Source: SAR202 cluster bacterium bin87 (lineage in GTDB: Bacteria > Chloroflexota > Dehalococcoidia > Lucifugimonadales > UBA3495). Taken from it: a stretch of DNA of 64,000 bases. The notes under the pieces are model-generated. The model saw only the letters and a program-made list of their open reading frames with translations. It had not been told where the DNA came from and made no database searches. How positions within the stretch are numbered: the first letter of the stretch is position 1; each line of letters begins with the position of its first letter. Positions 27,845 through 63,080 of the stretch are shown here, piece after piece. The translations under genes and the position numbers were made by a program. The stretch lies in contig MPNC01000009.1 of the NCBI GenBank assembly GCA_002238825.1, forward strand, positions 62,001 through 126,000, read 5' to 3'.

Positions 27845-27867
27845 TCTAAGGCCAGTGCCACAGGTGG

Positions 27868-30042: not shown

Positions 30043-30325
30043 TGGAAAACCTCCTTTCAAATTTGTCGTTCATCTCTACTTTGACGAATGCGGCTTCCTA
30101 ACCACTCGCAGTCGCCTCGACGTAGAACGCAACGTCCGGCGTCGGTGCCCCGAGCGAGTCCTCGATCCCCCGTGGCACCGTTTCGTTGAATCCTGGCTCG
30201 ATGAAGCCCGCTGGTTTGTTCATCATCATGTTCTCGCCCGTTCAATGCGTGGATTTCCTGAGCTGGGGACCTGCCCGCCCGTGTACAACTTGTCCTCAAG
30301 GACCCGGTGGGGACGAAAGATCCCA

Positions 30326-30901
30326 TTACCCACCCCGTTCAGTCAGTGGTTCCCTCTCGCTCAGGTAAGCGGCGATGTCATCGGCGCTCCAACCATCACA
30401 GGCCAGCTCCAAGACCAAACGCATGGTGCCGGCCTGCCGCTCGTCAAGCGCCGTTGGCACCTCCGCCTTGTCGTGGGCATAGCCGGAGACTCCGGAGGCG
30501 ACCAAGCCGGACAAACGACTACGGCGGTGGTCGTCGAAGGAACCCTGCACAAAGCGGATTTCAACGCCGGCCGCAGCAAACTCCTCGTATAGGAGCACGC
30601 GGTGCTCGGGGACGCACGACAGGCGTTCCGACGAGGAGACGTACACCAGGCCTACCTCGCCCGCCTGCACGGCCTGCCGAAGATGGGTCAACCCCGGACG
30701 GTCGAGTCCGGAGCCGCTCTGGCGGTCCCGAAAGACGTAAGCAGCCACGACGGGTGGCACTACGTCTTCAACTGCTTGGCGAGCACAGGTTGAGACTTGT
30801 GCTTCCAGAGTAGACTTTTTCTGCTGGATAGCGGAGTCACGGGCGTAGACCGCCGTATGGCGACCCGCCTCGCTTGACAAATCGTGTTTCTTGGATTTCA
30901 T
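30326..30901 (-). CDS. Resolvase-type N-terminal part of a serine recombinase, frameshifted
   Basis: A 191-residue frame: VYARDSAIQQKKSTLEAQVS carries the Arg-x-Ser catalytic start of serine recombinases. VYVSSSERLSCVPEHRVLLYEEF and GVEIRFVQ follow as in the catalytic domain. The frame stops at LTERGG, inside the recombinase domain. Homology seems to continue in another frame (NGIFRPHRVLEDKLYTGG) to about 30,228, so a frameshift is likely. GGAGG precedes ATG 30901. Paired with the gene at 29377 it could also be a split enzyme. Confidence 0.6.
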   Translation of the reverse strand: MKSKKHDLSSEAGRHTAVYARDSAIQQKKSTLEAQVSTCARQAVEDVVPPVVAAYVFRDRQSGSGLDRPGLTHLRQAVQAGEVGLVYVSSSERLSCVPEHRVLLYEEFAAAGVEIRFVQGSFDDHRRSRLSGLVASGVSGYAHDKAEVPTALDERQAGTMRLVLELACDGWSADDIAAYLSEREPLTERGG

Positions 30902-30924
30902 GATTTCCTCCATGGGCGACGTTG

Positions 30925-31916
30925 TCGACGAATGCGCGAACCTCTAGTTCAGCGCCCTCACCAAGGTTCTACAGGCGGCATAGCGGGCTTGGCCCTTCTT
31001 CGCCGCGCTGCACCGGTAGTAACGCTAGCCGCGGGAATTTCCGGCTACTACCAAGCGCGACCCGCAGCCGTCACAATGCACGGCATCCAGTGGCATTCGT
31101 CGACGACCGCTGCCCTCGTCCGCCACGCTGGGCTTGCGGGCGCTTCTGCACCCTGTCAAAGTGGTGTTAGATATTCGCAATGGATGCCTCGTCACGTTCT
31201 ATCTTTGGTTTTGCCCGTCAAATTGCCGCGGTGCGTCAGCCATACGGCCTTGCACCGCGACAACCTAATCCCGATTCCTCACTGTGTGCGAGTTTTCGTG
31301 TCCAACCAGGGACAGCGCGAACTTGACCAAATTGTGTGCCGTCTGCCGGAGGCGGCTCATCGCCCGCCTTCGCATGCCGTGTCGATTGTTCACGAAATGC
31401 ACCGCCACGCCGTGCCCATCAAGCTCCTCCAGCGCTGCCAAGGATTCCGGCTGGCTTCGTGACAACCGGCTGGCGCGGTAGAAGATCACCGCATCCACAT
31501 CTCCGGCCGCCACCGAACGCCGCAGCTTTTCGAATTCCTCACGCATCAGCGTCACCTCCGCAAGTCTCCCGGTGAACGTCTGCTTCATCAACCTGACATC
31601 CACCGGATTTCGCCCACTTGACGCAGGGGGCGGTCTGCGCTTCGGGCGAAGCCATCGTTTCCTGGCCGGATGTACTCACCCTGACGTAGACCTCGGCGCC
31701 ACGTTTCGTTCTCAGCACGTGATGCTCTTCGCCGCTTGCGTGGTGCAACAGGCACGAGCCGTCCACCATATTGGTGTCCCGACACCGCGTTTCATTCCTT
31801 TCCTCGTCCTCAATGTTTCTGAAGAGCGATTCGGCCTTTTCGAGCGAGATGCTGCCTTCCGACAATAGGCGGACAATTCGCTCTACGTCGCAATTCTTTG
31901 TCTCACCTTCCGGCAT
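30925..31916 (-). pseudogene. Degenerate serine recombinase in three frames
   Basis: The start MPEGETKNCDVERIVRLLSE (31916, with AGGGAGGAC upstream) leads to AEVYVRVSTSGQETMASPEAQ, a catalytic-serine start. The frame shifts near 31,570 and continues as RLAEVTLMREEFEKLRRSVA and YRASRLSRSQPESL to 31,265. A zinc-ribbon in a third frame (HCDGCGSRLVVAGNS, RYYRCSAAKKGQ) extends to about 30,925 with an in-frame stop. All parts of one recombinase are visible but it cannot be translated as such. Confidence 0.65.
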
Positions 31917-32308: not shown

Positions 32309-32941
32309 TCAGGACAAATCATCCCCGACTTCCAGCCGACGCTCCCGCTCGTTCCGCTCCCTCACCAACTGGAGAATAAGCTCCCTATTTGGCGTCAAAT
32401 CGTCACCCACGTAGGTCAGCGTGCCGCGGTCCCGCTTCCACCCTTTTCCATAACGCACCAAGCCTCCGAGTGAGGACCTGATTGACGCAGCACTGCTGGC
32501 ACGGGTCTCGCCAGTACGGAAAATCGCGTCGGCCAACGACACCTCCCGCAATATCGGCCCGTAGGTCATGGCGGCCCCGAACGCCCTCTGCCGGTTGGTC
32601 CGCTTTCCGGCCACTGCCCTGGTGTCCAACACCGGCTCCCCGGTCTCTTCATCGCGATCAAAGGGAGCGAAAGGCGGACTAATCACACCCGGACCCAACA
32701 GGCGTTCAAGAACCCCACGCTGGTCATAGGCGGGTCGCTCCTCACTGGCACATTCGGCTGCCTCACCCTCCGGAAGATCGATGGTGCCGCCCGCCAGAGC
32801 TTTAAACTCGGTTATGATCTCGAGCAGCCGGGTCGACCACCGTACTTTTTCGGCAGCCCGCCGCTTTTCCTCCACCCCCTGCCGTTGTTCCTGCAGCACC
32901 ATCTTCTCGAGTTCTGCCAAACGCTCAAGAATTCCGTCCAT
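32309..32941 (-). CDS. Coiled-coil protein with C-terminal winged-helix-like segment
   Basis: A 210-residue protein. The N-terminal 55 residues are a charged coiled coil (MDGILERLAELEKMVLQEQR). The middle (about 60-130) has no recognisable motif. The C-terminus (REVSLADAIFRTGETRASSA, then IRSSLGGLVRYGKGW and GTLTYVG) looks like a winged helix. The start at 32941 follows GGGAGATAG. It is divergent from the first array gene; the 520-bp region between them contains two strong hairpins, so it could be a regulator of the array. That role is inference. Confidence 0.5.
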   Translation of the reverse strand: MDGILERLAELEKMVLQEQRQGVEEKRRAAEKVRWSTRLLEIITEFKALAGGTIDLPEGEAAECASEERPAYDQRGVLERLLGPGVISPPFAPFDRDEETGEPVLDTRAVAGKRTNRQRAFGAAMTYGPILREVSLADAIFRTGETRASSAASIRSSLGGLVRYGKGWKRDRGTLTYVGDDLTPNRELILQLVRERNERERRLEVGDDLS

Positions 32942-33214
32942 GTCTCTATCTCCCAGTGGATCCCCATCCACCACAGTACTATAACCCAAAAAGCGCATTT
33001 ACACATACCGGTTTTGGGTTTTTCGTGAACATGATGCCATCCTATGATGCGCCACGTCAACCATGGCATCGTGATAATTCGGCGTTAATTGGGGTAAAAG
33101 GCGTGGCCAGTGTGAGAAGCAAGCAGCCGATAACCTGATTTCGCCAAGGCACCGCAGTAGGGTCCGAAAACCGGACTTGTACCGTCTGAGCCTTCCCGCT
33201 GCACGGCGTCATGC

Positions 33215-33248
33215 CAACCACCTTCGGAACACCTTCCGAAGGTGGTTG
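33215..33248. repeat. Perfect 15-bp stem hairpin
   Basis: Arm CAACCACCTTCGGAA, loop CACC, arm TTCCGAAGGTGGTTG, without a mismatch. There is no T-run, so it is not a standard terminator. It lies in the divergent region between the coiled-coil/winged-helix gene and array copy 1 and could be a binding or recombination site. Confidence 0.7.
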
Positions 33249-33400
33249 CCACCTCCTGATGCGGAAATCGCCTGACACAGCATCCACCACGAGATCCCGA
33301 CCTGGCGATGGCCTATTGGCATCCAAGAAAGCGTACCGGCTTTGGCCCGGCAACAAGACGGCATAATCCTGCCGCCCCGACACAGGAAAGGCTTCAAACG

Positions 33401-33425
33401 AAAGCCGCCCCGACGGGCGGCTTTT
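33401..33425 (+). terminator. Intrinsic terminator in the leader of array copy 1
   Basis: AAAGCCGCCC, loop CGAC, GGGCGGCTTT followed by TCGTTT. It ends 40 bases before the copy 1 ATG. No intact plus-strand gene precedes it, so it is either the end of a lost array copy or a leader attenuator. A close match precedes copy 3. Confidence 0.7.
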
Positions 33426-33464: not shown

Positions 33465-34982
33465 ATGCCAGCGACTGCCAGCAGCCCCCAAACTATCGTG
33501 ACACATGCCCTCGCGGTCTCTGCCGGCGAGGTTATCAACGCCGTCCGACACAACGTCCGCTACCCGTTCCTGCTGGACGCCAAGCTCGGCGACGCCAACA
33601 CCGCGCCGATGCCCGACACCACCATAGCGGACGTCTACGACACCGCCCTGAACTCCATCCACTTCAAGATGAGCCGCATCAGAACAGTCCTGATCAGCAT
33701 CGACCACCAGCATGGCAGCCCCCTGGCCCAAATCGCCGAGCGCGCCAACGACGCCATGGCCAGAGCCGCCATCATCAACCACCACAACCGCCGACCGCCG
33801 CTCTACTCCGAGAACACCATCAGCACCTTCATCAAACTCGGCTGCGCGAAACCGAACCACTCGCCCATCATCCGAGCCGCCGGACATGTCGTGCCGCCGC
33901 CAGTCACGAACCGCATCCGGAACGTCGACAACATCGCAGGCGACATCGCCGCCAACCTCGCGGCGTCTCCCGAACCGCAGACCGCCGAACAGATCCTGCA
34001 AGCCCTCAGGGACCGCCGGGAGGTCCTCGACCATTGGCCCAATCTAGACTTCGCGCTCGTCATCCGCAGGCTGACCGACATCTGGCCCGACCACCGTGGG
34101 CGCTACCACATTGACGAAAAATGGAGCAGGTTTCTGAGCGGGCAACGCCTGGTGACCAACACCGTCATCCGCATCCTGGACCGAGATCAGGAACCGCGCA
34201 CCACGGCTTTTCTCATTGACGAGACGGAACACCTGGTCCGACACCTGCTACCCGACGGGTACAACATCCCCAGCGCAGTCCGAACCTCGGTCTACACTTC
34301 CGACGAGATCTCTCGCCGCGACCTGGCGACGTTCGGACTCCGAATGTGGAATGACACGCCCGATGCGGAGAGCATGACCAGCCACTGGGGCTCGACCGAC
34401 GCTTTCATCCGCGCCTTCTTGACGGAAAACGGCCCCGCGACCGTGAATGACATCGTCCAACACATGCAGGAGACGTCAAACGCCAGAGACAACACCGTCC
34501 GAGACCTCGTCTACAGCAACAACTCCGGGCAATTCCTGCGCCTGCCAGACCGCCGAGTGGCAGTCAACCCTGTTCCACCGGCGCACAACCCCAGCACGCC
34601 GTCCATCAAGGTTGTGCCGGACGAGCACCGCCAGCGACCAGAGCCAGTGCTGCGCGAATCGGAGCTAGTGTGGCTCACGCACTACGTCCAAGCGCTGGAC
34701 GACCTGGAGCCGCCCCTGCCGGCAAGAGCCGTTTTGACGGGGCCACGAGCCACCGGCTCCACCATTGACGGATGCGTCGACCTCACGGTGGTCGCCGACG
34801 AACGTCATTGGCGCAGCCTGGAACCACGGTTGAAGCAACTCGCCGCCGCCACGTCGGAGCGGGTGCCGTCCGTGCCAATAATGATCAAAGTGGTCTCATC
34901 CGAAGCGTGGGAACGTCAGCAGGTAGGCAACGAGCCCCCATCACACTACAACATCTGGATGGCACCCTACGAAGCACCATAG
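33465..34982 (+). CDS. Tandem-array protein, copy 1 (unknown family)
   Basis: A 505-residue protein and the most diverged array member. It keeps FLLDAKLGDAN near 37-47, RRPPLYSENTISTFIKLG near 107-124, HSPIIRAAGHV, the first winged-helix-like segment ending RDLATFGLRMW, a second one (SDTV-like TVNDIVQHMQE then NTVRDLVYSNNS) and the C-terminal block TGPRATGSTID then VDLTVVADERH. In that block the NTase-like acidic pair is Asp-x-Thr. ATG 33465 has TGAGGAC upstream. The copy-1-type leader (hairpin plus ACACCAACCATG) recurs at copy 3. Confidence 0.78.
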   Translation: MPATASSPQTIVTHALAVSAGEVINAVRHNVRYPFLLDAKLGDANTAPMPDTTIADVYDTALNSIHFKMSRIRTVLISIDHQHGSPLAQIAERANDAMARAAIINHHNRRPPLYSENTISTFIKLGCAKPNHSPIIRAAGHVVPPPVTNRIRNVDNIAGDIAANLAASPEPQTAEQILQALRDRREVLDHWPNLDFALVIRRLTDIWPDHRGRYHIDEKWSRFLSGQRLVTNTVIRILDRDQEPRTTAFLIDETEHLVRHLLPDGYNIPSAVRTSVYTSDEISRRDLATFGLRMWNDTPDAESMTSHWGSTDAFIRAFLTENGPATVNDIVQHMQETSNARDNTVRDLVYSNNSGQFLRLPDRRVAVNPVPPAHNPSTPSIKVVPDEHRQRPEPVLRESELVWLTHYVQALDDLEPPLPARAVLTGPRATGSTIDGCVDLTVVADERHWRSLEPRLKQLAAATSERVPSVPIMIKVVSSEAWERQQVGNEPPSHYNIWMAPYEAP

Positions 34983-35052
34983 GCGGCTGGTTGTAATCAT
35001 CGACCATCCAACCACACCGACAGCTACTCAAAAAGATCAAAGAAGGTGAAGC

Positions 35053-35457
35053 ATGCCGCAAATGCCCGAGCGAATGTCAGCAGACAAGTCGCATCTGCTG
35101 GCCTACCTCAAACACACGCCCGGATTCGAGGGTCTCGTCCACTCCTTCTCAGACCTACCGGTCACCGAGATCGTGGCTCGCGTACGGGACGCCGACGAGA
35201 ACGCCTACCGAACCTGCATCGACCGCTTCGCCCAGCAGGGGATCAAACTTGAAGATTCCGCGCCGCTGCACTCAACGAGAGGAACAACCCCGAGTGACGA
35301 ACCGCCGCCCCCAGCCCGCGCTGTCCGGCAAAAACTGGCGTCGCTCGGCATCACGGAAACCGATGTGCTCGACGCCATTGCCTGGGCGAGATCGGACGTA
35401 GCTGAGGAGAACACCAGCCCATGTGCCCGACACCCAACACGCCAAGCCGCGTCGTGA
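35053..35457 (+). CDS. Small protein between array copies 1 and 2, unrecognised
   Basis: A 134-residue frame, the only non-array gene inside the array. The N-terminal half is mixed alpha/beta (LLAYLKHTPGFEGLVHSFSD, TEIVARVRDADENAYRTCID). The C-terminal RQKLASLGITETDVLDAIAWARS has the helical pattern seen at the end of small AbrB- or VapB-type antitoxins. AGAAGG lies upstream. It overlaps the start of copy 2 by 37 bases, so translation may be coupled. Function unknown. Confidence 0.55.
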   Translation: MPQMPERMSADKSHLLAYLKHTPGFEGLVHSFSDLPVTEIVARVRDADENAYRTCIDRFAQQGIKLEDSAPLHSTRGTTPSDEPPPPARAVRQKLASLGITETDVLDAIAWARSDVAEENTSPCARHPTRQAAS

Positions 35458-36992
35458 GCGACGACCTTCGAAACGCCGCCCAAGAGGTGGTCGCCGCCGT
35501 CCGCCGGAACACGCCCTACTCGTTCCTTCTGGACGCCAAGCTTGGCACCGCCGAGGTCGGACCCATGCTCGATGCCGACACAGTCGCACAGAATGACACG
35601 CCGCTGTACACCATCGCCATCAGGTGGAAGGACATCGCTCAAAACTTGATCGAGACCGACCGTCAGCACGGCAGCCCGCTCAACAAAATCGCCCAGCGCG
35701 CCAACGACATCATCACCCGCGCCGCCATCCTGAACCGCCACAACCGCCGGCCGCCGCTCTACGCCGAGAACACCATCAGCGAATTCATCAAGCTGGGCTT
35801 TTCGACACCGGAACACTCACCGCTCATCCGCGCCGCCGGATACGTGACGCCGCCGCCTGTCTTTCCGCTCAACTACGACCCTACTCCTGTTATGCGGGAC
35901 ATCGCAGCTTTCATGGCAAGGTCCGTCCAACCCCAGAGTACTGCCCAGATAATCGAGTCCCTCAAAGGACGGCAACATCTCCTCGACAAATGGCCCGACC
36001 TCGACCTGGCGCTCTTCATCCGACGAATGGCGGACATCCGCCCCGACGATCACGGGCTCTACCACCCGGACCAACCCTGGGGCAGATCTATCAGCGCCCG
36101 ACAGCTGGTCGCCAACACCATCTTTCGCATCTTCGCCCGCGACGGCGAACCCCGACAAGCGGCGTACCTCGTCAGCGAAACCGAGAGGCTGGTTGGCCAG
36201 TTTTTACCCGATGGGTACGACACCCGCAGCACCGTGCGGGCAACGATCTCAAAGTCCGACGACATCTCCTGGCACGGGCCGTCCACATTCGGCCTGCGGG
36301 AATGGAAAATCCTCCCAGAGCCAAGGGAAAGAACTGCCCGACGCAGCAACACCGGTGACCTGGTCCACGCCTTCCTCATCGACCACGGCCCAGCCGAAAT
36401 CGCGCACGTAACTGAACACTTCGTACAAACAACCGGCGCCAAGTGGAGAACAATCGAAGAATCCATCCACCACGACCGAAAAAACCGGTTCATTCAAATT
36501 TCCGACGGCAGGGTAGCCGCTAATCCCATTCCCCATGGGCACAACCGCGCCTCCCGTTCGCTGAAGGTGGTGTCGGACCTAAAGGAATGCGAACCGGTCA
36601 CCGTCCTACGGGACTCCGAACTCGCCTGGCTCACGCGCTACCTGAAGGGCCTGGCGGAGCTGGCGCCGCCTCTGCCCTGCCGTGCGGCCATCACGGGAGC
36701 GCGCGCCGCCGGTTTTGTCCACGAAGGCGACACTCTCGAGATCACGGTCGTGCTAGAACCCCGCGACAGGCCGGACCTGGAACCCAGGCTAGCGGAGTGC
36801 GCGTGCGCAGCCACCGAAGCGGTCCCATCCGTACAACCGAAGGTCAGGATCCTGCCAGCCGAGCAGTGGGCGCAGCAACAGGGCGAGGAATCGCCCGCCG
36901 CACACCACAACGTCTGGTTCCCTCCAGACGCCGCATCACGACGAGATGGTCCGTCGAACGGCTCCAAACCCCACGCACCAGAAAGGCTGTAG
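35421..36992 (+). CDS. Tandem-array protein, copy 2 (unknown family)
   Basis: A 523-residue protein, the longest copy because of a C-terminal tail. It has the full family layout: YSFLLDAKLGTAE, NRHNRRPPLYAENTI, EHSPLIRAAGYV, DLALFIRRMADIRPD, DQPWGRSISARQLVAN, a winged-helix-like end STFGLREW, and GDLVHAFLIDHGPAEI. The C-terminal block (AITGARAAGF, LEITVVLEPRDRPDLEPRL, VPSVQPKVRILPAEQW) is closest to copy 7, not to its neighbours, and that similarity extends at DNA level over 36,620-36,945. GAGGAG precedes the ATG. Confidence 0.8.
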   Translation: MCPTPNTPSRVVSDDLRNAAQEVVAAVRRNTPYSFLLDAKLGTAEVGPMLDADTVAQNDTPLYTIAIRWKDIAQNLIETDRQHGSPLNKIAQRANDIITRAAILNRHNRRPPLYAENTISEFIKLGFSTPEHSPLIRAAGYVTPPPVFPLNYDPTPVMRDIAAFMARSVQPQSTAQIIESLKGRQHLLDKWPDLDLALFIRRMADIRPDDHGLYHPDQPWGRSISARQLVANTIFRIFARDGEPRQAAYLVSETERLVGQFLPDGYDTRSTVRATISKSDDISWHGPSTFGLREWKILPEPRERTARRSNTGDLVHAFLIDHGPAEIAHVTEHFVQTTGAKWRTIEESIHHDRKNRFIQISDGRVAANPIPHGHNRASRSLKVVSDLKECEPVTVLRDSELAWLTRYLKGLAELAPPLPCRAAITGARAAGFVHEGDTLEITVVLEPRDRPDLEPRLAECACAATEAVPSVQPKVRILPAEQWAQQQGEESPAAHHNVWFPPDAASRRDGPSNGSKPHAPERL

Positions 36993-37060
36993 AACCGCCC
37001 CGGAGGCCGTTTCCGACACTCGTACGCAATACCGGAGCACGACAGGAAGGCTGCAATCGA

Positions 37061-37086
37061 GAGCCGCCCTCACGGGCGGCTTTTCG
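37061..37086 (+). terminator. Intrinsic terminator between array copies 2 and 3
   Basis: GCCGCCC (37063-37069), loop TCAC, GGGCGGC then TTTTCGGTTTT. The same hairpin type, with a similar upstream stretch (GACAGGAAGGCT), precedes copy 1. It ends about 36 bases before the copy 3 ATG. Confidence 0.72.
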
Positions 37087-37121
37087 GTTTTGAGCCGCGG
37101 CAATCCCCAAGGACACCAACC

Positions 37122-38648
37122 ATGTCAACGACCACCAACGGCACTCAAGCCATCGTGACCGATGACCTCGCGGCCAGCGCCTGCGAGGTCGTCAACTCCG
37201 TCCGACACAACACACGCCACCCGTTCCTCTTCGACGCCAAGCTCGGCGACGCCAACACCGGACCGATGCCCGACCCCGCCATCGCTGCCATCCTCGACGC
37301 GCCGAAAGGCACCATCGGCTACTGGTTGAACCCCATCATCAAAGCCCTCAAGGATGCAGACCAGCAGCTCGGCAGCCCGCTGCACCAAATCGCCCAGCGT
37401 ACCAACGACGTAATCGCCAAGGCCGCCATCATCAATCGGCAAAACCGCCGGCCACCTCTCTACGCCGAACCGACCATCCGCGTCCTCATCGAACTCGGCT
37501 TCGCAACCGCGAAGGACGCACCGCTCATCCGCGCCGCCGGGTACGTCAACCCGCCGTCCGTCGTCCCAGCCAGCCACGACATCGACGAGATCATGAAGGA
37601 CATCGCCGTCAATATGGCGCGGGCCCGCGACCCGCATAGCCCTGAAGACATCCTCCAGTCCTTGCGCCATCGCCAGGACGACCTCGCGAACTGGCCAGAG
37701 CTCGACCTTGAACTCTTCATCCGTCGGGTGGGCGGACTGCTCCCCGACGACCAGGGCCTCTACCAGCCAGACCAGCCCTGGGGCACGCTCATCAGACCCT
37801 CGCAGCTGGTCGCCAAAACGGTGCTTCACATCCTCAAACGCGACCAACGCCCCCGCAGCGCGCCGTACCTCATCGACGAGACCAGACGCCTGGTGGGTCT
37901 CCACCTGCCCGATGGATACAACCTCCCCAACGCCGTCCATCACTTCGCCTACCACTCCGATGAGGTCACGCTCCAAGGCCGTTCGACTTTCGGACTACGC
38001 AAATGGGGTACCACTCGAAACGTTCCCAACGCTCCAAACGTGAACGAGGTTCCCACCACCACCGGAGACCACATCTACGTCTTCCTGATGGAACACGGGC
38101 CCTCCAACATCAATGACGCCATCGAACACGCCCTGCGAACGGTCGGAACCGAGCGGAGAACCATCCAGGACGTCATCAACCACGATAACGCGCAGCGGTT
38201 CGTCAGGCTACCCGACCGCAGGCTGGCAGCCAATCCGTTCCACAAAGGCCTCAACCCCATTGCCACCACGCTGACGGTGGTCCCAGACGGACAGCAAAGC
38301 CGGCTTGGCCCCATCCTGCGCCAGTCGGAACTGCTGTGGATCACCCACTACGTCCAAGCTCTGAACAAACTGGCACCACCGCTGCCGACCCGAGCCGCGC
38401 TGACCGGCCCACGCGCCGCCGGTTTCGCGTTGGACGAACCCATCGAAATCGTGGTCGTGGTCGACGACCGCGACAGGCCCGACCTCGAGAGCCAGCTGGC
38501 GCGCGCCGCCGCTGTTGCGTCTGAGTCAGTGCCAAGCGTACAGCCGCAAATCAGCATCCTGTCTGTCGAGCAGTGGACCGAGCGAATGGACGGAGAACCT
38601 CCCACTGCTCACCACAACGTCTGGCTCGCCCCTGGCGCCACGCCATAG
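37122..38648 (+). CDS. Tandem-array protein, copy 3 (unknown family)
   Basis: A 508-residue protein, used here for residue positions: LFDAKLGD 36-43, RRPPLYAE about 107-114, DILQSL about 176, LELFIRRV about 195, DQPWG about 217, first winged-helix-like segment about 225-295 ending STFGLRKW, second about 312-385 (GDHIYVFLMEHGP, ERRTIQDVINHD), C-terminal NTase-like segment about 397-505 (SELLWITHYVQALN, TGPRAAGF, IEIVVVVDDRD, VPSVQPQISILSVEQW, AHHNVWLAP). No signal peptide or membrane helix. AAGGAC precedes the ATG. Confidence 0.8.
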   Translation: MSTTTNGTQAIVTDDLAASACEVVNSVRHNTRHPFLFDAKLGDANTGPMPDPAIAAILDAPKGTIGYWLNPIIKALKDADQQLGSPLHQIAQRTNDVIAKAAIINRQNRRPPLYAEPTIRVLIELGFATAKDAPLIRAAGYVNPPSVVPASHDIDEIMKDIAVNMARARDPHSPEDILQSLRHRQDDLANWPELDLELFIRRVGGLLPDDQGLYQPDQPWGTLIRPSQLVAKTVLHILKRDQRPRSAPYLIDETRRLVGLHLPDGYNLPNAVHHFAYHSDEVTLQGRSTFGLRKWGTTRNVPNAPNVNEVPTTTGDHIYVFLMEHGPSNINDAIEHALRTVGTERRTIQDVINHDNAQRFVRLPDRRLAANPFHKGLNPIATTLTVVPDGQQSRLGPILRQSELLWITHYVQALNKLAPPLPTRAALTGPRAAGFALDEPIEIVVVVDDRDRPDLESQLARAAAVASESVPSVQPQISILSVEQWTERMDGEPPTAHHNVWLAPGATP

Positions 38649-38674
38649 AAGCAAGCCACCCAGGTTACCAACCC

Positions 38675-40207
38675 ATGCAACAAGCAACAGACATGCTCCA
38701 ACCCGTCGTAACCGATGAACTCCGCGCATCCGCTCAGGAGGTCATCCAGACCGTCCATAGGAACGCACGCCACGCGTTCCTGCTGGACGCCAAGCTCGGC
38801 GACGCCGAAACGGGTCCCATGTTCGATGCCGACATAGCGACGTCTTACGACAAGCCTCTCTACAGCATCGGCACCAGGTGGAAAGACCTCACCCGCCAAA
38901 TCGCCCAAGCCGATGCTCAACACGGCAACCCTCTCAGCCAAATCGCCCACCGTGCCAACGACGTCATCGCCCGCGCCGCCATCCTGAACAGGCACAACCG
39001 CCGGCCACCGCTCTACGCCGAGTCCACCATCAACTCCTTCATCCAGCTGGATTACGCAAGACCGGAACACTCGCCGATCATCCGCGCAGCTGGGCACGTG
39101 GTACATCCTCCGGTCTTCCCGCTAAATCACGACCTCAACCTCATCATCCCCGACGTCGCGGCCCACATGGCGGCTTCCCACGAAAGGCAAAGCGCAGAAC
39201 AGATCCTCCGGTCCATTAAGGACCACCAGGGGCTCCTCGCAAAGTGGCCACACCTCGACTTGCCGCTTTTCATCCGACGCGCGATGGATATTCGACCCGA
39301 CAATCGCGGGTGCTACCACCCTGAACAGCCATGGGGGAGGTTCATCAGCGCCCAACGCTTGGTGGCCAGCACCATGCTCCGCATCTTTGCCCGTGACGGG
39401 GAACCCCACCACACTGCGTACCTGACTAACGAGGTGGAGCGCCTGGTGGGACAGTTCCTGCCCAAGGGGTACAACACCCTCGGCGCAGTACGCGCGACAC
39501 TCTCGAAATCGGATGACATCTCCTGGCAGGGACCGTCAACTTTCGGTCTCCGGAAATGGGAGACAGCCCTAGACCCACGGAGCATAGTCAGCAACCGCGG
39601 TACAACCGGAGACCTCATCTACGCCTTTCTGATACGGCACGGCCCCGCCGACACCGATGAAATCATCGGACACGTCCAGCGAAACTCCACGGCCAAGAAA
39701 CGCACCGTCCAAGCAGCAATCAACCACGACCCCGCGAACCGATTCATCCGGAGCGCCGACGGACGTGTGGCCATCAATCCCATCCCACAAAACCTCAACC
39801 CGGACGCCCCCGCCCTGAAGATCACCCCGGACGGGCATCGTCACCGACCAGCTCCCATACTACGCCAGTCGGAACTGCTGTGGCTAACCCACTACGTCCA
39901 AGCGCTGAACGACCTCGAACCGCCGCTGCCCCCTCGGGCCGCCATCACGGGCACGCGAGCAGCTGGCTTCGCGTCCGACGACCTCATGGAAATCACCGTG
40001 GTGGTCGACGACCGCGACAGAGCCAACCTCGAGAGTCGGCTGGCGCAAGCTGCCGAGGTTGCGTCTGAGGCAGTGCCAAGCGTACAGCCGCAGATCAGCA
40101 TCCTGTCTGCCGAGCAGTGGACCGAGCGCATGGACGGAGCAACACCCGAGGCTCATCACAACATCTGGCTGGCTCCGCACACCACTTCACGAAGGGGTGG
40201 CGCGTAG
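38675..40207 (+). CDS. Tandem-array protein, copy 4 (unknown family)
   Basis: A 510-residue protein, MQQATDMLQPVVTDELRASA onward. The first 45 codons and the 27-base spacer before the ATG are almost identical to those of copy 6. The segment from GDLIYAFLIRHGPA to KITPDGHRHRP (39,605-39,848) is almost identical to copy 5. The C-terminal block is TGTRAAGFASDDLMEITVVV. The family layout is complete. The Shine-Dalgarno is weak (CAGG), and the gene starts only 26 bases after copy 3, so it is probably co-transcribed. Confidence 0.8.
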   Translation: MQQATDMLQPVVTDELRASAQEVIQTVHRNARHAFLLDAKLGDAETGPMFDADIATSYDKPLYSIGTRWKDLTRQIAQADAQHGNPLSQIAHRANDVIARAAILNRHNRRPPLYAESTINSFIQLDYARPEHSPIIRAAGHVVHPPVFPLNHDLNLIIPDVAAHMAASHERQSAEQILRSIKDHQGLLAKWPHLDLPLFIRRAMDIRPDNRGCYHPEQPWGRFISAQRLVASTMLRIFARDGEPHHTAYLTNEVERLVGQFLPKGYNTLGAVRATLSKSDDISWQGPSTFGLRKWETALDPRSIVSNRGTTGDLIYAFLIRHGPADTDEIIGHVQRNSTAKKRTVQAAINHDPANRFIRSADGRVAINPIPQNLNPDAPALKITPDGHRHRPAPILRQSELLWLTHYVQALNDLEPPLPPRAAITGTRAAGFASDDLMEITVVVDDRDRANLESRLAQAAEVASEAVPSVQPQISILSAEQWTERMDGATPEAHHNIWLAPHTTSRRGGA

Positions 40208-40377
40208 AGTAGCTCCAAGCATTCCGAGGGCAACCCAAGTACCAGACAAGGCCGTAGGGCACACCCGGGGGCCGCATCCAGCCGAAACTGCGCTCCCCTC
40301 TACCACCATCGTCGCCGCTCAAATCAACGCAAGTGAGGGCGTCTAACGCCCCACATCAATCGTCTAGGTCAGGACTA

Positions 40378-41895
40378 ATGCCGAAAGTACCCGACACACT
40401 CGAACCCATCGCTACCAAAAACCTAGCCTCAGCCGCCCAGGCGGTGATCGAACACGTCCGCAGAGAATCCCTATACCCGTTCCTGCTTGACGCCAAACTC
40501 GGCGATGCCGAATGCCCGCCCAAGACCGACAGAGAGCTGGCGTCAGAGCACGACACTCCGCCCAGCACGATCAGCTACCGGTGGACCATCATCGCAGCCG
40601 CCATCACTCAGGCAGACCAAGAACACGGCAATCCCCTGCGACAGATTGCTCAACGGGCGAACGACGCCATGGCAGCCGCCGCAATCATAAACCGCCACCG
40701 GCGGCATCCTCCGGTCTGCTCGGACGACACCATCAGGATCTTCATGGAACTCGGCCTAGCGGCATCCCAGCACTCGCCGCTAATCCGTGCCTCCGGCCAT
40801 GTATTGCCACCGCCCACCGTCCCGACCGGCCACGGCATCGATTTCATCATTGCCGACATAGCCAGTCACATGGCGCGGTCCCACGAACCGCAAACTCCCC
40901 AGCAGATCCTCCAAGCCCTGCGGCACCGTCAGCAAGTACTCGACCAGTGGCCGAAGCTCGACATCGCACTCTTCATCCGCCGGGTGGCGGACATCCCAAT
41001 CGACCCCACGGGCCGCTACCACGCAGACCAGCCTTGGGGCGCCTTCCTCAGCACAGGCCAGTTGGTGGTCAACACGATGCTCCGCATTCTCGAACGGGAG
41101 CAGAGGCCGCTGGCCACGAAGTACCTCTCCAGCGAGGTGGAGCGCTTGGTAGGCAGGTTTCTGCCCGACGGCCACAACACTTCGAGGGCCATCCGCGCCG
41201 CGGCACGCGCTTCCGACGAAGTCTCATGGCAGGGCCTGTCCACATTCGGACTACGGGCATGGGAAACCGCCTTGCATCCACGGAGCATCACCACGCGCCG
41301 CAGCAAGACCGGAGACCTCATCTACGCCTTTCTGATACGGCACGGCCCCGCCGGCACCGATGAAATCATCGAACACGTGAAGCGACTCTCGACGGCCAAG
41401 AAACGCACCGTCCAAGCAGCAATCAACCACGACCCCGCGAACCGATTCATCCGGAGCGCCGACGGACGTGTGGCCATCAATCCCATCCCACAAAACCTCA
41501 ACCCGGACGCCCCCGCTCTGAAGATCACCCCGGACGGGCATCGTCACCGACCCACTCCTGTCCTGCACGAATCGGAAATGCTGTGGATCACACACTACGT
41601 CCAGGCTCTTGATGAACTGGCACCACCGTTGCCAGCCCAAGCAGCGCTGACCGGCTCACGCGCGGCCGGTTTCGCGTTGGACGACCGCATGGAAATCACC
41701 GTCGTAGTTGACGACCGCGACAGGCCCGACCTCGAGAGCCAGCTGGCGGAAGCCGCCGCTGTTGCATCTGAGTCAGTGCCAAGCGTACAGCCGCAGATCA
41801 GCATCCTGTCTGCCGAGCAGTGGGCCGAGCGAATGGACAGAGAACCTCCCACTGCTCACCACAACGTCTGGCTCGCCCCTGGCGCCACGCCATAG
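40378..41895 (+). CDS. Tandem-array protein, copy 5 (unknown family)
   Basis: A 505-residue protein starting MPKVPDTLEPIATKNLASAA. The first 170 residues are distinctive (REWSLYPF replaced by RESLYPFLLDAKLGDAECPP; RRHPPVCSDDTI). From about residue 300 it matches copy 4. Its last 60 residues and the following spacer match copy 3. It is a mosaic of its neighbours. TCAGGAC lies before the ATG. The 170-bp gap before it carries the conserved 3' module seen after copy 7. Confidence 0.8.
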   Translation: MPKVPDTLEPIATKNLASAAQAVIEHVRRESLYPFLLDAKLGDAECPPKTDRELASEHDTPPSTISYRWTIIAAAITQADQEHGNPLRQIAQRANDAMAAAAIINRHRRHPPVCSDDTIRIFMELGLAASQHSPLIRASGHVLPPPTVPTGHGIDFIIADIASHMARSHEPQTPQQILQALRHRQQVLDQWPKLDIALFIRRVADIPIDPTGRYHADQPWGAFLSTGQLVVNTMLRILEREQRPLATKYLSSEVERLVGRFLPDGHNTSRAIRAAARASDEVSWQGLSTFGLRAWETALHPRSITTRRSKTGDLIYAFLIRHGPAGTDEIIEHVKRLSTAKKRTVQAAINHDPANRFIRSADGRVAINPIPQNLNPDAPALKITPDGHRHRPTPVLHESEMLWITHYVQALDELAPPLPAQAALTGSRAAGFALDDRMEITVVVDDRDRPDLESQLAEAAAVASESVPSVQPQISILSAEQWAERMDREPPTAHHNVWLAPGATP

Positions 41896-41921
41896 AAGCA
41901 ATCCACCCAGGTTACCAACCC

Positions 41922-43457
41922 ATGCAACAAGCAACAGACACAACCCAACCCGTCGTAACCGATGAACTCCGCGCATCCGCTCAGGAGGTCATCCAGACCG
42001 TCCATAGGAACACCCGCCACGCGTTCCTGCTCGACGCGAAGCTCGGCGACGGCAGCACCGCACCGATGCGGGACACGCAAATCGCCCAGACTTACGACAC
42101 TCCCCGTGCCTCCATCAAGGACAAGATGTCGCGCATCATCGACACCCTCGTCAAGGCCGACCGAAATCACGGCAATCCGCTGCACCAGATCTCCCTGCTA
42201 GCCAACGACGCGATGGCGGCCTCCGCCATCATCAACCGACACGTCCGCCGGCCGCCTCTGTATTCCGAAGGCACCATCACCACGTTCATCAACATGGGCT
42301 TGGCAACTCCGGAGCACTCGCCACTGATTCGCGCCTCCGGTTACGTGCTCCCTCCCACAGTCGTCCTGGCGACCAACGACGCCGACTTCATGATCGCCGA
42401 CGTCGCCACCCACATGGCGCGGTCGAACGGACGACAAACACCCGAGCAAATCATCGAAGCCCTGCAACATCGTCGGGCAAACCTCGAACTGTGGCCACAA
42501 CTGGACATGACGCTTTTCATCGAACGCTTGGCAGGCATCCGTCCCGACTGCGAGGGACGCTACGACCCGAACCAGCCTTGGGGAAAGCTCGTGAGCCCGC
42601 AACGGCTGGTCGCCAGCACGATGATCCGCGTCCTTGAACGCGACCGGCAACCGCGGACCACGGCCTACCTCGATGAGGAGATCAGGAACCTGGTGGGATA
42701 CCTCCTGCCGCACGGATACAACACCATCAACGCCATCCGTAACGCTGCCTACCCGTCCGACGAGATCTCATGGCAGGGCACCTCGACGTTTGGCCTGACC
42801 GAACCGAACGCCACAACGGACCACCAGAAGAGCGGCCGCCGCGGTAGAACCGGCGACCGCATCCATGCCTTCCTGATGGAGCACGGCCCCGCCAACGTCG
42901 AGGACATCATCGAACACATCCAGCAGAACTCTAATGCCAAGCGGAGAACGGTTCAGGACGCCGTCAACCACGACCTCAAGGACCGGTTCATCCGGCTCTC
43001 CGACCGAAGGATTGCGGCAAACCCAATTCTCGAGGGACACGACCGCACCCCGCGCTCACCCATGGTGGTGCCGGACGAAAATAAAAACGAACCACGCCCA
43101 GTCCTGCGTGAATCGGAACTGGCGTGGCTCACACGCTACATCCAGGCACTCAACGACCTCACGCCACCACTGCCCCTACGAGTAGCGGTGACAGGTCCGA
43201 GGGCCACCGGTTTGGCACTCGAGGAGCCTTTAGTGATCACGGTCGTGCTCGACGCCGACCACAGGCCGAGCCTCGAACCCAGACTGGCGCAAATAGCTGA
43301 CGCCGTGTCCGAACGGGTACAGGCCGCGCGCCCGAAGGTGATGATCATGTCGCTCGAAGAATGGGACCAAGAACACGCAGACGGCAACCCCGACCAGCAC
43401 CACAACATCTGGATGGCACCAGACGAGGCGCCAGCGGCATCATTGTTGCCAAATTAA
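41922..43457 (+). CDS. Tandem-array protein, copy 6 (unknown family)
   Basis: A 511-residue protein. The N-terminus (QPVVTDELRASAQEVIQTVH) is shared with copy 4 at near-DNA identity, then it diverges (GDGSTAPMRDTQIAQTYDTP). It keeps NRHVRRPPLYSEGTI, LDMTLFIERLAGIRPD, DEISWQGTSTFGL and GDRIHAFLMEHGPANV. The C-terminal block TGPRATGLALEEPLVITVVL is closer to copy 1. The end QHHNIWMAPDE also resembles copy 1. No membrane segment. Confidence 0.8.
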   Translation: MQQATDTTQPVVTDELRASAQEVIQTVHRNTRHAFLLDAKLGDGSTAPMRDTQIAQTYDTPRASIKDKMSRIIDTLVKADRNHGNPLHQISLLANDAMAASAIINRHVRRPPLYSEGTITTFINMGLATPEHSPLIRASGYVLPPTVVLATNDADFMIADVATHMARSNGRQTPEQIIEALQHRRANLELWPQLDMTLFIERLAGIRPDCEGRYDPNQPWGKLVSPQRLVASTMIRVLERDRQPRTTAYLDEEIRNLVGYLLPHGYNTINAIRNAAYPSDEISWQGTSTFGLTEPNATTDHQKSGRRGRTGDRIHAFLMEHGPANVEDIIEHIQQNSNAKRRTVQDAVNHDLKDRFIRLSDRRIAANPILEGHDRTPRSPMVVPDENKNEPRPVLRESELAWLTRYIQALNDLTPPLPLRVAVTGPRATGLALEEPLVITVVLDADHRPSLEPRLAQIADAVSERVQAARPKVMIMSLEEWDQEHADGNPDQHHNIWMAPDEAPAASLLPN

Positions 43458-43477
43458 ACTCCACGAGGCCCTGCACC

Positions 43478-45004
43478 ATGACAGCCCATTTAGAACATCT
43501 CCATCCCACAGTGACCGCCAACCTTTTGGACGCCGCCCAAAAGGTCATCCAACGAACCAAGCAGGACACGCCCTACCCGTTTCTTCTCGACGCCAAACTC
43601 GGCGACGCCAACACCGGGCCGCTCACCGACGCCCAGTTGGCTGCGGCACACGACACTTCCCTGAGTACCCTCAACCGCAGGGTAGCCTATGCCACCAAGA
43701 CCTTGGTTCGGACCGACCAAGCGTCGGACAACCCCTTGGCAAAGGTCGCCCAACGAGTCAACGACTTCATGGCACGGGCCGCAGTCATCAACCGACACAA
43801 ACGGCGCCCTCCGCCCTACTCTGAGTCAACTATCAAGACGTTCATCGAACTCGGATACGCGAAACCGGAGCACGCACCTATCATACGGGCGGCGGGCCAT
43901 GTCGCCCCGCCGCCCATAGTCTCGACGGACCACGACATCGACTTCGTCATCTTCGACATCGCCGCCCACCTGTCGCGGTCCTACGAGCCACAATGCACCC
44001 AACAGATCCTGGATGCCCTGAGTCATCGCCAGGACGTGTTGGCCAAATGGCCACAGCTCGACCTGACGCTCTTCATACGTAGAGTCGCCGGTATCAACCC
44101 CAACAGCGAAGGACGCTTGGACCCGGACCAGCCTTGGGGGACATTCATGAGGCGGCAACAACTGGTCGCCAACACGATGACCCGCATCCTCTCCCGCGAT
44201 AATGAACCGCATTCCACGCAGTACCTCACCGACGAGATCAATCGTCTCGTGGGACATCTGCTGCCCAACGGGTACAACATCCTCAACGCCATCCGAAACG
44301 TCACTGTGACATCCAACGAGATCTCCTGGCAAGGCCTGGCCACCTTTGGTCTCACCCAATGGGAAACCAACATCGCCGCCCAGGACACCGGGCGCCGACA
44401 CAGCACCGGCGACCTGGTCTACGCCTTCCTGCTGAATGCCGGACCCGCCGGCATCGACGACGTAATACAGCATGTCCAGCGGACCACCAAGGCCAAAAAA
44501 CGCACCGTCGCGAACGCCATCAACCATGACCCCGAAAACCGGTTCATCCGCATGGACGACCGACGCATCGCCGCCAACCCAATCCCGGACCACCACAATC
44601 CAGGCGGCCCAGCTCTCACGGTCATCCCTGACGGGCGACGACAAGGTCCCGTCCTGCGGGAGTCCGAACTGGCGTGGCTCACGCGCTACCTACAGGGCCT
44701 GTCGGAGCTGGCGCCGCCTCTGCCTTGCCGTGTGGCGCTCACGGGACCTCGCGCCGCAGGCTTCGCTCATGAGGGCGACACTCTCGAGATCACAGTCGTC
44801 GCCGAACCCCGCGACAGGCCGGACCTGGAACCCAGGCTCGCGGAGTGTGCGAACGCAGCCACCGAAGCGGTACCGTCCGTAAAACCGAAGGTCAGAATCC
44901 TGCCAGCCGAGCAGTGGGCGCAGCGCCAGGGCGAGGAATCGCCCACCGCACACCACAACGTCTGGTTCCCTCCAGACACCGCTTCACGACGGGACGACGC
45001 GTAG
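43478..45004 (+). CDS. Tandem-array protein, copy 7 (unknown family)
   Basis: A 508-residue protein, MTAHLEHLHPTVTANLLDAA onward, with ACGAGG before the ATG and 20 bases after copy 6. The family layout is complete: YPFLLDAKLGDANTG, NRHKRRPPPYSESTI, LTLFIRRVAGINPN, DQPWGTFMRRQQLVAN, ISWQGLATFGLTQW, GDLVYAFLLNAGPAGI. The last 110 residues match copy 2. It is followed by a GC-rich inverted segment (AACGCGCCCGGGGGCGTTT) that may end the transcript, and by a module repeated at 46,277. Confidence 0.8.
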   Translation: MTAHLEHLHPTVTANLLDAAQKVIQRTKQDTPYPFLLDAKLGDANTGPLTDAQLAAAHDTSLSTLNRRVAYATKTLVRTDQASDNPLAKVAQRVNDFMARAAVINRHKRRPPPYSESTIKTFIELGYAKPEHAPIIRAAGHVAPPPIVSTDHDIDFVIFDIAAHLSRSYEPQCTQQILDALSHRQDVLAKWPQLDLTLFIRRVAGINPNSEGRLDPDQPWGTFMRRQQLVANTMTRILSRDNEPHSTQYLTDEINRLVGHLLPNGYNILNAIRNVTVTSNEISWQGLATFGLTQWETNIAAQDTGRRHSTGDLVYAFLLNAGPAGIDDVIQHVQRTTKAKKRTVANAINHDPENRFIRMDDRRIAANPIPDHHNPGGPALTVIPDGRRQGPVLRESELAWLTRYLQGLSELAPPLPCRVALTGPRAAGFAHEGDTLEITVVAEPRDRPDLEPRLAECANAATEAVPSVKPKVRILPAEQWAQRQGEESPTAHHNVWFPPDTASRRDDA

Positions 45005-45302: not shown

Positions 45303-45770
45303 TCACGGCACGTTTTCTTCGTCCTGCGCCGGTCCATCGTCATCTCGCGCTAAGGCTGCCTCCAGCCGTTCAGCCACAGCGTTGAGCGCATCCACGATTT
45401 GCGACGACGTTTTTTCCTGTCGCTCAGCGATGGCTTTCAGCATCTCGGTGATCTCGCGGTGGCGCCGCTCTGCGCCACGATCTTGGAGCCGAGACATCAA
45501 TACCCCCAAAATGGTCACGGTCAGGCCTCCAGACGCGGTGGCGACTCCTACTTTGAAAGCGGTTATGTCGCCGGAAGTTGCCCACTGGTATGTTAAGACC
45601 AAGAGGACGGAAGCGAACAAGGTCGCCACTGGCATGATCAAGCTATCGTGCCAAATCACGGCGGATACGGCTCCCCATAGGGAATTATTCGCTTCCAGCC
45701 TTGACGGGTGCCATTTCCTGACCCTCGGCGCTCGCCCGATGGCTGCCAAGTACAGCATCCACGCTTCCAT
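45303..45770 (-). CDS. Two-helix membrane protein with C-terminal coiled coil
   Basis: A 155-residue protein. LIMPVATLFASVLLVLTYQW (about 44-63) and GVATASGGLTVTILGVLMS (about 75-93) are transmembrane. Then a cytoplasmic coiled coil (REITEMLKAIAERQEKTSSQ, IVDALNAVAERLEAALARDD). The layout is like the gene at 46981, although the sequences are not clearly homologous. It converges on array copy 7. No family is recognised. Confidence 0.6.
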   Translation of the reverse strand: MEAWMLYLAAIGRAPRVRKWHPSRLEANNSLWGAVSAVIWHDSLIMPVATLFASVLLVLTYQWATSGDITAFKVGVATASGGLTVTILGVLMSRLQDRGAERRHREITEMLKAIAERQEKTSSQIVDALNAVAERLEAALARDDDGPAQDEENVP

Positions 45771-45989: not shown

Positions 45990-46288
45990 ATCTACGTCCA
46001 AGGCCCTGAACGACCTCGAACCGCCGCTGCCCTCTCGGGTCGCCATCACGGGCCCGCGAGCTGCTGGCCTCGCGTCCGACGACCCCATGGAAATCACCGT
46101 CGTGGTCGACGACCGCCACAGGGCCAGCCTCGAAAGCCGGCCGACGCAAGTCGCCGCCGTTGCGTCTGAACCGGTTCCGCCCGTGCAACACCAGATCAGC
46201 ATCCTGTCTGCCGAGCAGTGGGCCGAGCGAACGTACGGAGAAACACCCGAGGCTCATCACAACATCTAGCTGGCTCCCGACACCACTT
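45990..46288 (+). pseudogene. C-terminal remnant of the array family (right outlier)
   Basis: The frame LNDLEPPLPSRVAITGPRAA then SDDPMEITVVVDDRHRASLE and QISILSAEQWAERTYG matches array copies 4 and 5. An extra base near 46,002 breaks the upstream frame. The conserved Trp of HHNIWLAP is a TAG (46,267), a nonsense mutation. The following module (46,277-46,375) is about 95% the same as that after copy 7. Confidence 0.75.
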
Positions 46289-46980: not shown

Positions 46981-47421
46981 TCAACCGTCAGAGCCACCCG
47001 AGGAATTGGGACCTCCCCCATCCCCGGACCGTGCTTCAAGCAGGTCACGAATGTTGCCGGACAGCTCCGACATCTGCTGCGTCATCTCTGACAGGGCAGC
47101 CACCACCTGGGCGTTGCCCACCTGCACGGCCGATACCACTTGGGTGTTACCTTCCTCGATGACCTTCTTCAGTTCCACCGTCGTCTCGTCAAAATGACCC
47201 TGACTTAGCGGCGGTGCAAACAGATTCGTTATCCGGTTGATGATCGTCACCATGACACCTGTGATTGCGAGGACTGCGCTGATTATAACAACCGGCGAGT
47301 CAAAGTCTGGCCGGACGTACCACAACAACAGCCCGTCCGCACAAAGGATCAGCAACATCGCCACCGGCAGGTTCCAAACCAAATACTGCTGGCGGCCGAG
47401 GATCTCATCCCCAGCGCCCAA
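46981..47421 (-). CDS. Two-helix membrane protein with coiled-coil tail
   Basis: A 146-residue protein: LVWNLPVAMLLILCADGLLL (about 14-33) and VVIISAVLAITGVMVTIINR (about 44-63) are membrane helices. A long coiled coil (about 78-130, TTVELKKVIEEGNTQVVSAV and MTQQMSELSGNIRDLLE) and a Gly/Ser tail follow. The start TTG at 47421 is uncertain because the upstream sequence is shared, on the other strand, with the zinc-ribbon gene. Same architecture as 45303-45770; the function is unknown. Confidence 0.55.
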   Translation of the reverse strand: MGAGDEILGRQQYLVWNLPVAMLLILCADGLLLWYVRPDFDSPVVIISAVLAITGVMVTIINRITNLFAPPLSQGHFDETTVELKKVIEEGNTQVVSAVQVGNAQVVAALSEMTQQMSELSGNIRDLLEARSGDGGGPNSSGGSDG

Positions 47422-49035: not shown

Positions 49036-49058
49036 AACCCAAAACGAGCCGAAGCCGC

Positions 49059-49496
49059 CAGGTAAAAGGCGTCCGACAACGGACCCACCGGATCTCGCCA
49101 TGCTGTTTGTCATCGGATTGCTCGCGCTCGCTCTGGCGTTCCTGATTCCGCTAGCCGTCTCTCTGCGCAGCAGTGGCCGGTCCCGTCGACATTCCGACAG
49201 CTTGCTCGTCGGCACATTTGCGGGTTCGGCCTCCGTCGGCCTGGTCAGCGTCTGGATTGCCGCAATCGCGTTTTTCATCCCTGGAATATTGACGACCGGC
49301 GTAGGGTTGTTGGCCGCATTCAGCGTCGTCATGGCCGCACCGGCGGCCATGATTTGGCCCACACGTGGCTGGCTGCGTGGCTGACCGTCACAAGCGCCAC
49401 CATCCCCGGATGACTACTCAACTTGAGCGATGCGTACCGCGAAGTTCTCGATTTCGGGCGCCATCACGCGCGCCACGTCGACCACGGTCGCCAGTG
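49059..49496. repeat. 438-bp direct duplication, copy A
   Basis: Matches 50855-51292 at constant offset (1,796) with few base changes and no gaps. It contains the complete small membrane gene at 49100 and the last about 80 bases of the gene at 51210-52118 as a dead 3' fragment (minus strand, 49,417-49,496). Confidence 0.85.
49100..49384 (+). CDS. Small membrane protein, duplicated (copy A)
   Basis: A 94-residue protein with three hydrophobic helices: MLFVIGLLALALAFLIPLAV, SVGLVSVWIAAIAFFIPGIL and LLAAFSVVMAAPAAMIWP, with a basic loop (RSSGRSRRHSD). It differs from copy B at one residue (Leu/Ser). No family is recognised. Confidence 0.55.
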   Translation: MLFVIGLLALALAFLIPLAVSLRSSGRSRRHSDSLLVGTFAGSASVGLVSVWIAAIAFFIPGILTTGVGLLAAFSVVMAAPAAMIWPTRGWLRG

Positions 49497-50845: not shown

Positions 50846-50854
50846 CAAAGCCAC

Positions 50855-63079: not shown

Positions 63080-63080
63080 A

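Follow-up and report, generated by a model that had tools for sequence, protein, structure and literature searches.

A tandem array of seven paralogues with predicted sigma-region-4-like, winged-helix and MNT-type folds in a SAR202 bacterium

The 64,000-nucleotide stretch of SAR202 cluster bacterium bin87 analysed here (assembly GCA_002238825.1, contig MPNC01000009.1, positions 62,001 to 126,000; hereafter the window) contains, at 33465-45004, seven stop-free open reading frames (ORFs) of 505-523 amino acids (aa) lying side by side on the + strand. The encoded proteins are paralogues of an unrecognised family with a common predicted-fold architecture. In their C-terminal domain the catalytic motif is lost and gene conversion homogenises the copies, the predicted recognition helix of their N-terminal helix-turn-helix (HTH) domain is the most variable structured element, and the divergent gene beside the array is conserved beside a homologue in a related genome. 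We read the array as seven sequence-specific DNA-binding regulators that would share an interaction domain and differ in DNA specificity, in a mobile-element setting, and give this reading a probability of about 0.5.

Seven paralogues with one domain plan

The copies align end to end with nearly no gaps at 46-64% pairwise identity (trimmed), and are separated by spacers of 20-171 bp, save copies 1 and 2, which have a 134-aa ORF between them (Table 1). A first-pass annotation, made from the letters of the window, had described seven intact same-strand paralogues with very short spacers except for one small gene after copy 1, and the ORF coordinates, identities and alignment agree with that description; every motif block it named is found in the alignment of the copies. 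It had overlooked the N-terminal HTH and two C-terminal remnants of further copies. Both remnants are decayed and lie outside the array, indicating that the array was formerly larger; no further copies were found elsewhere in the 4.96-Mb home genome. Every pair of copies shows nonsynonymous divergence (dN) of ~0.26-0.47 and synonymous divergence (dS) of ~0.7-1.25, and the gene-wide ratio of nonsynonymous to synonymous rates (omega) in a codon model of the copies is 0.175. The values of all pairs thus describe long-separated, individually maintained genes under purifying selection. The divergence between the copies also led us to reject an assembly artefact (collapsed or duplicated copies) as a likely origin of the array, as far as sequence can tell. 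To our knowledge, it is unusual for bacteria to carry a big tandem array of intact, long regulator paralogues that vary mainly in the DNA-reading helix.

The structure of copy 4 was predicted by AlphaFold from an eight-sequence input, and residues 1-296 were additionally modelled alone. The model has a mean predicted local distance difference test score (pLDDT) of 76.6, reaching ~86-93 in the HTH region, and a predicted template modelling score (pTM) of 0.46; the domains are thus good, while their mutual arrangement is uncertain. The predicted plan comprises a sigma-region-4-like HTH, three winged helices and a C-terminal nucleotidyltransferase (NTase) fold of the MNT-antitoxin type, the last extending over model residues 383-502 by structure comparison, with structure-search rows at Z 7-9 for winged helix 3 (residues 308-369). 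The first-pass fold calls hold for the winged helices at residues 226-292 and 309-370 and for the NTase at 383-502, all recovered by the model and the structure search. Its proposal of DNA-binding regulators is the natural reading of the recovered folds, from which we infer that the proteins probably bind DNA. The check by structure prediction that it had proposed, done on copy 4, gives matches domain by domain, and none that relates the whole protein to a characterised family; the Foldseek rows covering the full length, to a proteasome lid and designed crystals, have TM-scores of ~0.1-0.2 and are spurious.

The best structure matches of the N-terminal part are nearly all sigma region 4. Specifically, the top rows are 7kug_D (Z 8.0, 92 residues, 2.7 Å) and 8d5v_B (Z 7.7), chimeras in which sigmaA region 4 is joined to the flap tip of the RNA polymerase (RNAP) beta subunit, both aligned to model residues 13-147; next come sigmaE region 4 on DNA (2h27, Z 6.1), SigA region 4 (6ono, Z 6.0) and SigL region 4 (3hug, Z 5.8) (residues 15-87). 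Judged from the aligned ranges, helices 116-145 of the array protein seem to stand where the chimera has its flap tip. The assignment to sigma region 4 is made because the structure rows agree and the register fits the sigma factors of the home genome; significant sequence similarity plays no part in it. No Pfam sigma domain is found in any copy, including region 2 (-10 recognition, core binding), and the rest of the model consists of winged helices and the NTase fold. Winged helix 2 ends in an aromatic 'GL..W' that we take to be reminiscent of HARE-HTH proteins, a lead only; the Pfam HARE-HTH model matches none of the copies, with E values up to 10 allowed.

The C-terminal part is matched by the MNT antitoxin 8xeo_B (Z 8.1, 98 residues, 3.2 Å), 2rff (Z 8.2) and HI0073 (1no5, Z 7.3), and the profile of the array family aligns with that of the MNT-like proteins of the genus in a profile-profile comparison (hhalign, 94.9%, E 4.5e-8); PF01909 itself matches none of the array copies. 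In the alignment, all copies read G[PATS]RA[AT]G where the catalytic GS ... DxD is expected, and the DxD pair is gone, as in GPRAAGFALDEPIEIVVV; an intact MNT relative (locus L060) reads GSHARGISGLDVDF. The catalytic motif of the array domain is lost, and the domain is an MNT relative that is most likely incapable of nucleotide transfer. MNT-type domains without catalysis frequently survive as interaction modules.

The array-family profile also picks up small proteins in relatives G003, G004, G006, G012 and G013. Reading out the loci places the small MNT-like genes of G004, G006 and G013 immediately upstream of Pfam HEPN genes and shows one small protein with a near-threshold NTP_transf_2 match. 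With the small proteins as queries, relatives turn up in 11 of the 14 genomes of the genus, a count that takes in the array itself and one doubtful match in G008. The home genome has such a pair too, an MNT-like gene at C53:51652-51984 that adjoins a HEPN gene at C53:52032-52358 (pair, C53:51652-52358). In G003 and G012, an MNT relative with intact GS...DxD is fused to a 1076-aa protein, which in G003 is followed by a HEPN-like ORF. Neither in the array nor next to the G003 homologue of the array family could a HEPN-like ORF be recognised; of the HEPN matches of the home genome, those on the array contig are over 70 kb distant and the rest are on other contigs. Two side observations concern these relatives. 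Degenerate MNT-like genes stand directly upstream of HEPN in G004, G006, G013 and the home contig C53 (L016, L017, L019, L047) and also at L020 (G003), and in most of these loci the DxD pair is missing despite the conserved operon. The 1076-aa protein (L060 1738-5372 in G003; L061 3376-6606 in G012) is methyltransferase-like, carries the MNT domain at its C terminus and resembles a restriction/toxin-antitoxin hybrid.

The family, which the first-pass annotation had called unrecognised, is matched by no Pfam, PHROGs, NCBIfam, PADLOC or PDB sequence model. Pfam returned only noise against all copies (E > 0.04), NCBIfam and PDB sequences gave no match to the array proteins, and PADLOC models gave none for 8 family members at E up to 1; the best PHROGs match, to a tail assembly chaperone (E 0.0074, one member only), was dismissed as noise. 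The complete layout occurs in no library searched, and neither the layout nor a tandem array of it is described in the open-licence papers searched. The component domains are of known kinds; their combination and the array are new.

Divergence and gene conversion among the copies

When pairwise counts are taken for each structural element, the recognition helix of the N-terminal HTH is the outlier. The peak 21-codon window spans residues 64-84 and exceeds position-shuffled controls (p 0.015). In a codon model, helix 62-75 has an omega of 0.83 compared with 0.175 for the gene (p 0.0033), and a star tree, chosen because the copies recombine, gives 0.82 (p 0.0067). Consistently, the windows of highest nonsynonymous rate in a fixed-alpha beta scan all fall at 61-83, apart from the faster disordered C-terminal tail, and the nine most variable of 142 helical quartets are all within helices 51-58 and 62-82. 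The outward positions 62, 63, 66, 67, 70, 71 and 74 have a nonsynonymous rate of 0.72-0.85, against 0.14-0.18 for inward positions; taken alone, the outward set is too small for its departure from the gene average to reach significance (p 0.10-0.17). Positions 62, 63, 66 and 67 average 2.24 bits versus 1.06 for all columns (permutation p 0.0004), and the core positions neighbouring them, at 1.19 bits, show no difference from all columns. In the hhalign register, these four positions are the counterparts of the -35 contacts R584, E585, R588 and Q589 of sigma70. The MNT part is conserved among the copies (omega 0.19). Helix 268-278 of winged helix 2 also has high entropy, which the codon model does not uphold (omega 0.09-0.11). 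The first-pass view that diversity is selected therefore stands as to the concentration of nonsynonymous change in the predicted recognition helix, and falls short as to its rate, with omega at ~0.8 and not significantly above 1.

Gene conversion among the copies homogenises the MNT end. High-identity tracts run from residue 397-398 to the end in copies 3/5, 2/7 and 3/4, and others cover residues 282-503 in copies 4/5 and residues 1-44 in copies 4/6. A 491-bp junction tract that begins in the terminal part of copy 3 and runs up to codon 43 of copy 4 is 91.4% identical, without gaps, to its counterpart between copies 5 and 6, which likewise reaches codon 43 of the second gene. The homogenised tracts flank the variable helix and end short of it, a pattern expected if the C terminus and core must stay alike and the reading helix is free to differ.

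Distribution and genomic neighbourhood

The array family occurs in two of the 14 genomes of the genus, the home genome and G003 (the family-rank sample comprised 50 genomes), and G003 has a single full-length homologue with 33% identity to the array family. A scan of ~85,000 species found one other carrier, JAPPMU010000024.1 of Chloroflexota bacterium isolate RHO3_bin_54, the same as G003; the scan depends on short conserved peptides, which distant relatives may escape. Among 393 genomes of the class, profile searching gave no match outside the home genome, and none was found in viral contigs or, by tblastn, in phages and plasmids. The family is not a single-copy housekeeping gene, nor does it match a characterised family, the two outcomes that the first-pass annotation had named as contrary to its proposal.

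Table 1. Features of the array and its surroundings (window positions)
Feature	Position	Strand	Details
C-terminal remnant, further copy	27857-27975	+	left of recombinase fragments
Serine recombinase fragments	29377-31916	-	at least two genes; beyond partner gene
Divergent partner gene	32309-32998	-	winged-helix-like, 229 aa; C-terminal part conserved beside G003 homologue
Inverted repeat	33212-33251	.	18-nt arms 94% complementary, inner 14 nt perfect, 4-nt loop
GC-rich hairpin and T-rich tail, copy 1 leader	33401-33424	+	similar before copy 3, 37062-37081
Copy 1	33465-34982	+	505 aa
134-aa ORF, copies 1/2 spacer	35053-35457	+	overlaps copy 2 start by 37 bp; no Pfam match
Copy 2	35421-36992	+	523 aa
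Copy 3	37122-38648	+	508 aa
Junction tract, copy 3 end to codon 43 of copy 4	38314-38804	+	compared with 41561-42051
Copy 4	38675-40207	+	510 aa; used for AlphaFold model
Predicted sigma-region-4-like HTH domain	38714-38977	+	copy 4 residues 14-101
Predicted recognition helix	38858-38920	+	copy 4 residues 62-82; most variable structured element
Predicted winged helix 1	39134-39322	+	copy 4 residues 154-216
Predicted winged helix 2	39350-39550	+	copy 4 residues 226-292; ends STFGLR.W
Predicted winged helix 3	39599-39784	+	copy 4 residues 309-370
Predicted MNT-type NTase fold without catalytic motif	39857-40174	+	copy 4 residues 395-500
Copy 5	40378-41895	+	505 aa
Copy 6	41922-43457	+	511 aa
Copy 7	43478-45004	+	508 aa
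C-terminal remnant, eighth copy	46000-46287	+	one stop

In both genomes, the first family gene is transcribed away from the partner gene, which in G003 lies at L011 7036-7866 (C-terminal part, 33% over 129 aa, E 3e-15) and is followed by an intact 534-aa serine recombinase gene. The partner gene was not found in other relatives, apart from one G005 match, which falls in the region of a ComEC-like gene and which we set aside. The inverted repeat lies inside the 467-bp divergent intergenic region and is a candidate local operator; it is a single site in the home genome, and therefore no regulon can be derived from it. A GC-rich hairpin with a T-rich tail similar to those in the array also stands shortly before the G003 homologue (L011 7935-7959), and we conjecture that these leader hairpins might act as an attenuator. 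CRISPR-like repeat arrays, a candidate call from repetitive 'SIPARAGEP/GLSPRVRGN' frames, were noted ~4-8 kb from the G003 homologue (L011 13400-17400).

A GPD-like gene at 17.6 kb and a major facilitator superfamily (MFS) gene at 61 kb flank the region; in relatives the two do not lie next to each other, and an empty insertion site can therefore not be defined. Just downstream of the array are two genes for small membrane/coiled-coil-like proteins with no significant Pfam match (45303-45770 and 46981-47421, both -), followed by near-identical ORFs of 144 and 145 aa (48928-49362 and 50721-51158, both -; 'MGQIMAAGAAMTTLNAA.NPTPVVNIPGMKNAIAAIQTL') that are ~1.8 kb apart, with a DUF3800 gene between them; this segment is possibly duplicated or mobile. 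A Septu-like pair, identified by PADLOC ~17 kb downstream (62348-63998, -), consists of an HNH protein of the PtuB type and a PtuA-type ATPase, of which the window contains the C-terminal part before the gene continues past its edge. By proximity, the recombinase genes and the Septu-like pair weakly suggest that the array lies in a mobile or defence-rich stretch. Such a setting, together with the toxin-antitoxin kinship of the MNT domain, is compatible with a defence role. The first-pass proposal of defence or conflict factors is itself not borne out, as PADLOC gives no match and the array contains no toxin partner.

Readings of the array and known systems

In the mechanism that we propose, the copies would keep a common core and C terminus after duplication, aided by gene conversion, and the recognition helix of the N-terminal HTH would diverge so that each copy probably binds its own DNA site. 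The MNT domain, its motif lost, would probably serve protein-protein contact, either dimerisation or the docking of a HEPN-type partner in trans, and the array proteins may be made with, or balanced against, the divergent winged-helix-like partner. The array probably arrived on a recombinase-bearing element, and its purpose would most likely be the control of promoters of mobile elements or toxin-antitoxin-like modules.

Several points weigh against this proposal. For the fold, the structure search gives Z-scores of 6-8, which its own scale rates as middling, the hhalign comparison with sigma region 4 is weak (E 0.03-0.075, a single comparison, in the same register), and PF04545 matches no array copy. 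For the variation, the omega of helix 62-75 is not above 1 (p ~0.65), and relaxed constraint could therefore yield the same pattern; 13 regions were tested, which brings the p value of 0.0033 to ~0.04; and the ratio of 1.9 that raw NG86 counting gives for the recognition helix is inflated by few synonymous changes, the codon model giving 0.83. The tree-based tests are approximate, with seven recombining sequences only, and surface positions of a helix vary more than core positions in any protein. Target sites were found for no copy.

Relaxed constraint is what a relic of a mobile element would show, such as a regulator of replication, excision or immunity whose copies arose locally through unequal crossing-over and have no separate roles. 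The serine recombinase genes that adjoin the family in both genomes, the pseudogene remnants on either side of the array, the junction tracts typical of unequal exchange and the recognition-helix omega would all suit such an origin. However, seven intact copies with an omega of ~0.17 at a dS of ~1 point to purifying selection long kept, and redundant copies should have decayed as both remnants did; we regard the relic as rather unlikely. An array of DNA-bound antitoxins, in which the pseudo-MNT domain would bind HEPN toxins encoded elsewhere and the HTH would anchor the complex at specific promoters, is doubtful in our view. It draws on the array C terminus being closest to those MNT-like proteins of the genus whose genes immediately precede a HEPN gene, on the MNT-like/HEPN pair of the home genome, and on the MNT fusions of G003 and G012 with the HEPN-like ORF that follows in G003, but a HEPN gene lies neither in or beside the array nor beside the G003 homologue, and with the catalytic motif gone neutralisation of the AMPylation type is not expected. 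Makarova et al. 2009 (PMC2701414) considered that MNT-HEPN systems might possess a DNA-binding component acting in trans, and such antitoxins would supply this third component.

The structure matches also bear on whether the proteins are directed at the polymerase, with the sigma-region-4-like domain contacting core RNAP or -35 elements and the copies redirecting transcription as sigma-like activators. Its best matches are the sigmaA region 4/beta flap tip chimeras, over residues 13-147, and the variable positions coincide with sigma -35 contacts; yet sigma regions 2 and 3 are absent from the model and the Pfam results, and the protein's own helices 116-145 may fill the flap-binding surface from within, which makes this very improbable. 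The reading as DNA-binding regulators has a bolder, rather unlikely extension, a recombining repertoire of DNA-reading proteins, in which a constant toxin-antitoxin-related domain and a diversified recognition helix would join several targets to one output, possibly HEPN-type effectors in trans. If so, a cell or mobile element would cover several DNA targets via one shared output. The HEPN link in trans is the most interesting testable version because the C terminus has toxin-antitoxin kinship, and the combination of an MNT-type fold with DNA-binding domains, in a genus with MNT-like/HEPN pairs, makes the trans idea of PMC2701414 testable. Its copies also form a small natural series in which the re-tuning of a sigma-region-4-type recognition helix can be studied.

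Each part of the protein has a known counterpart from which the whole departs. Residues 14-101 share helix order and fold with sigma-70 region 4, and the recognition helix is in register with the TRERIRQIEA helix conserved in sigma factors of the home genome. Unlike sigma-70 region 4, the array protein has neither a PF04545 match nor a region 2, its recognition helix is hypervariable, its HTH is joined in one polypeptide with three winged helices and an NTase fold, and an internal segment aligns to the flap tip of the chimera. Winged helix 3 has the winged-helix topology of the RNAP delta subunit (RpoE), to which it aligns with a middling score (9a6y, Z 6.9). Residues 383-502 share the fold of MNT antitoxins (8xeo, 8xeh, 7ae9, 1no5; PF01909), and profile homology with the MNT-like proteins of the genus includes the pre-core helix 'E..WL..y...L'. 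In contrast to MNT antitoxins, the array domain lacks GS...DxD and an adjacent HEPN gene, and is fused to DNA-binding domains in tandem copies. Fusions of a sigma-type HTH to HEPN are on record in the DUF4145 group of the HEPN superfamily (PMC3710099). The array protein likewise joins a sigma-type HTH to a conflict-system domain, but where HEPN is the fused domain in that group, it has an MNT-type fold together with three winged helices.

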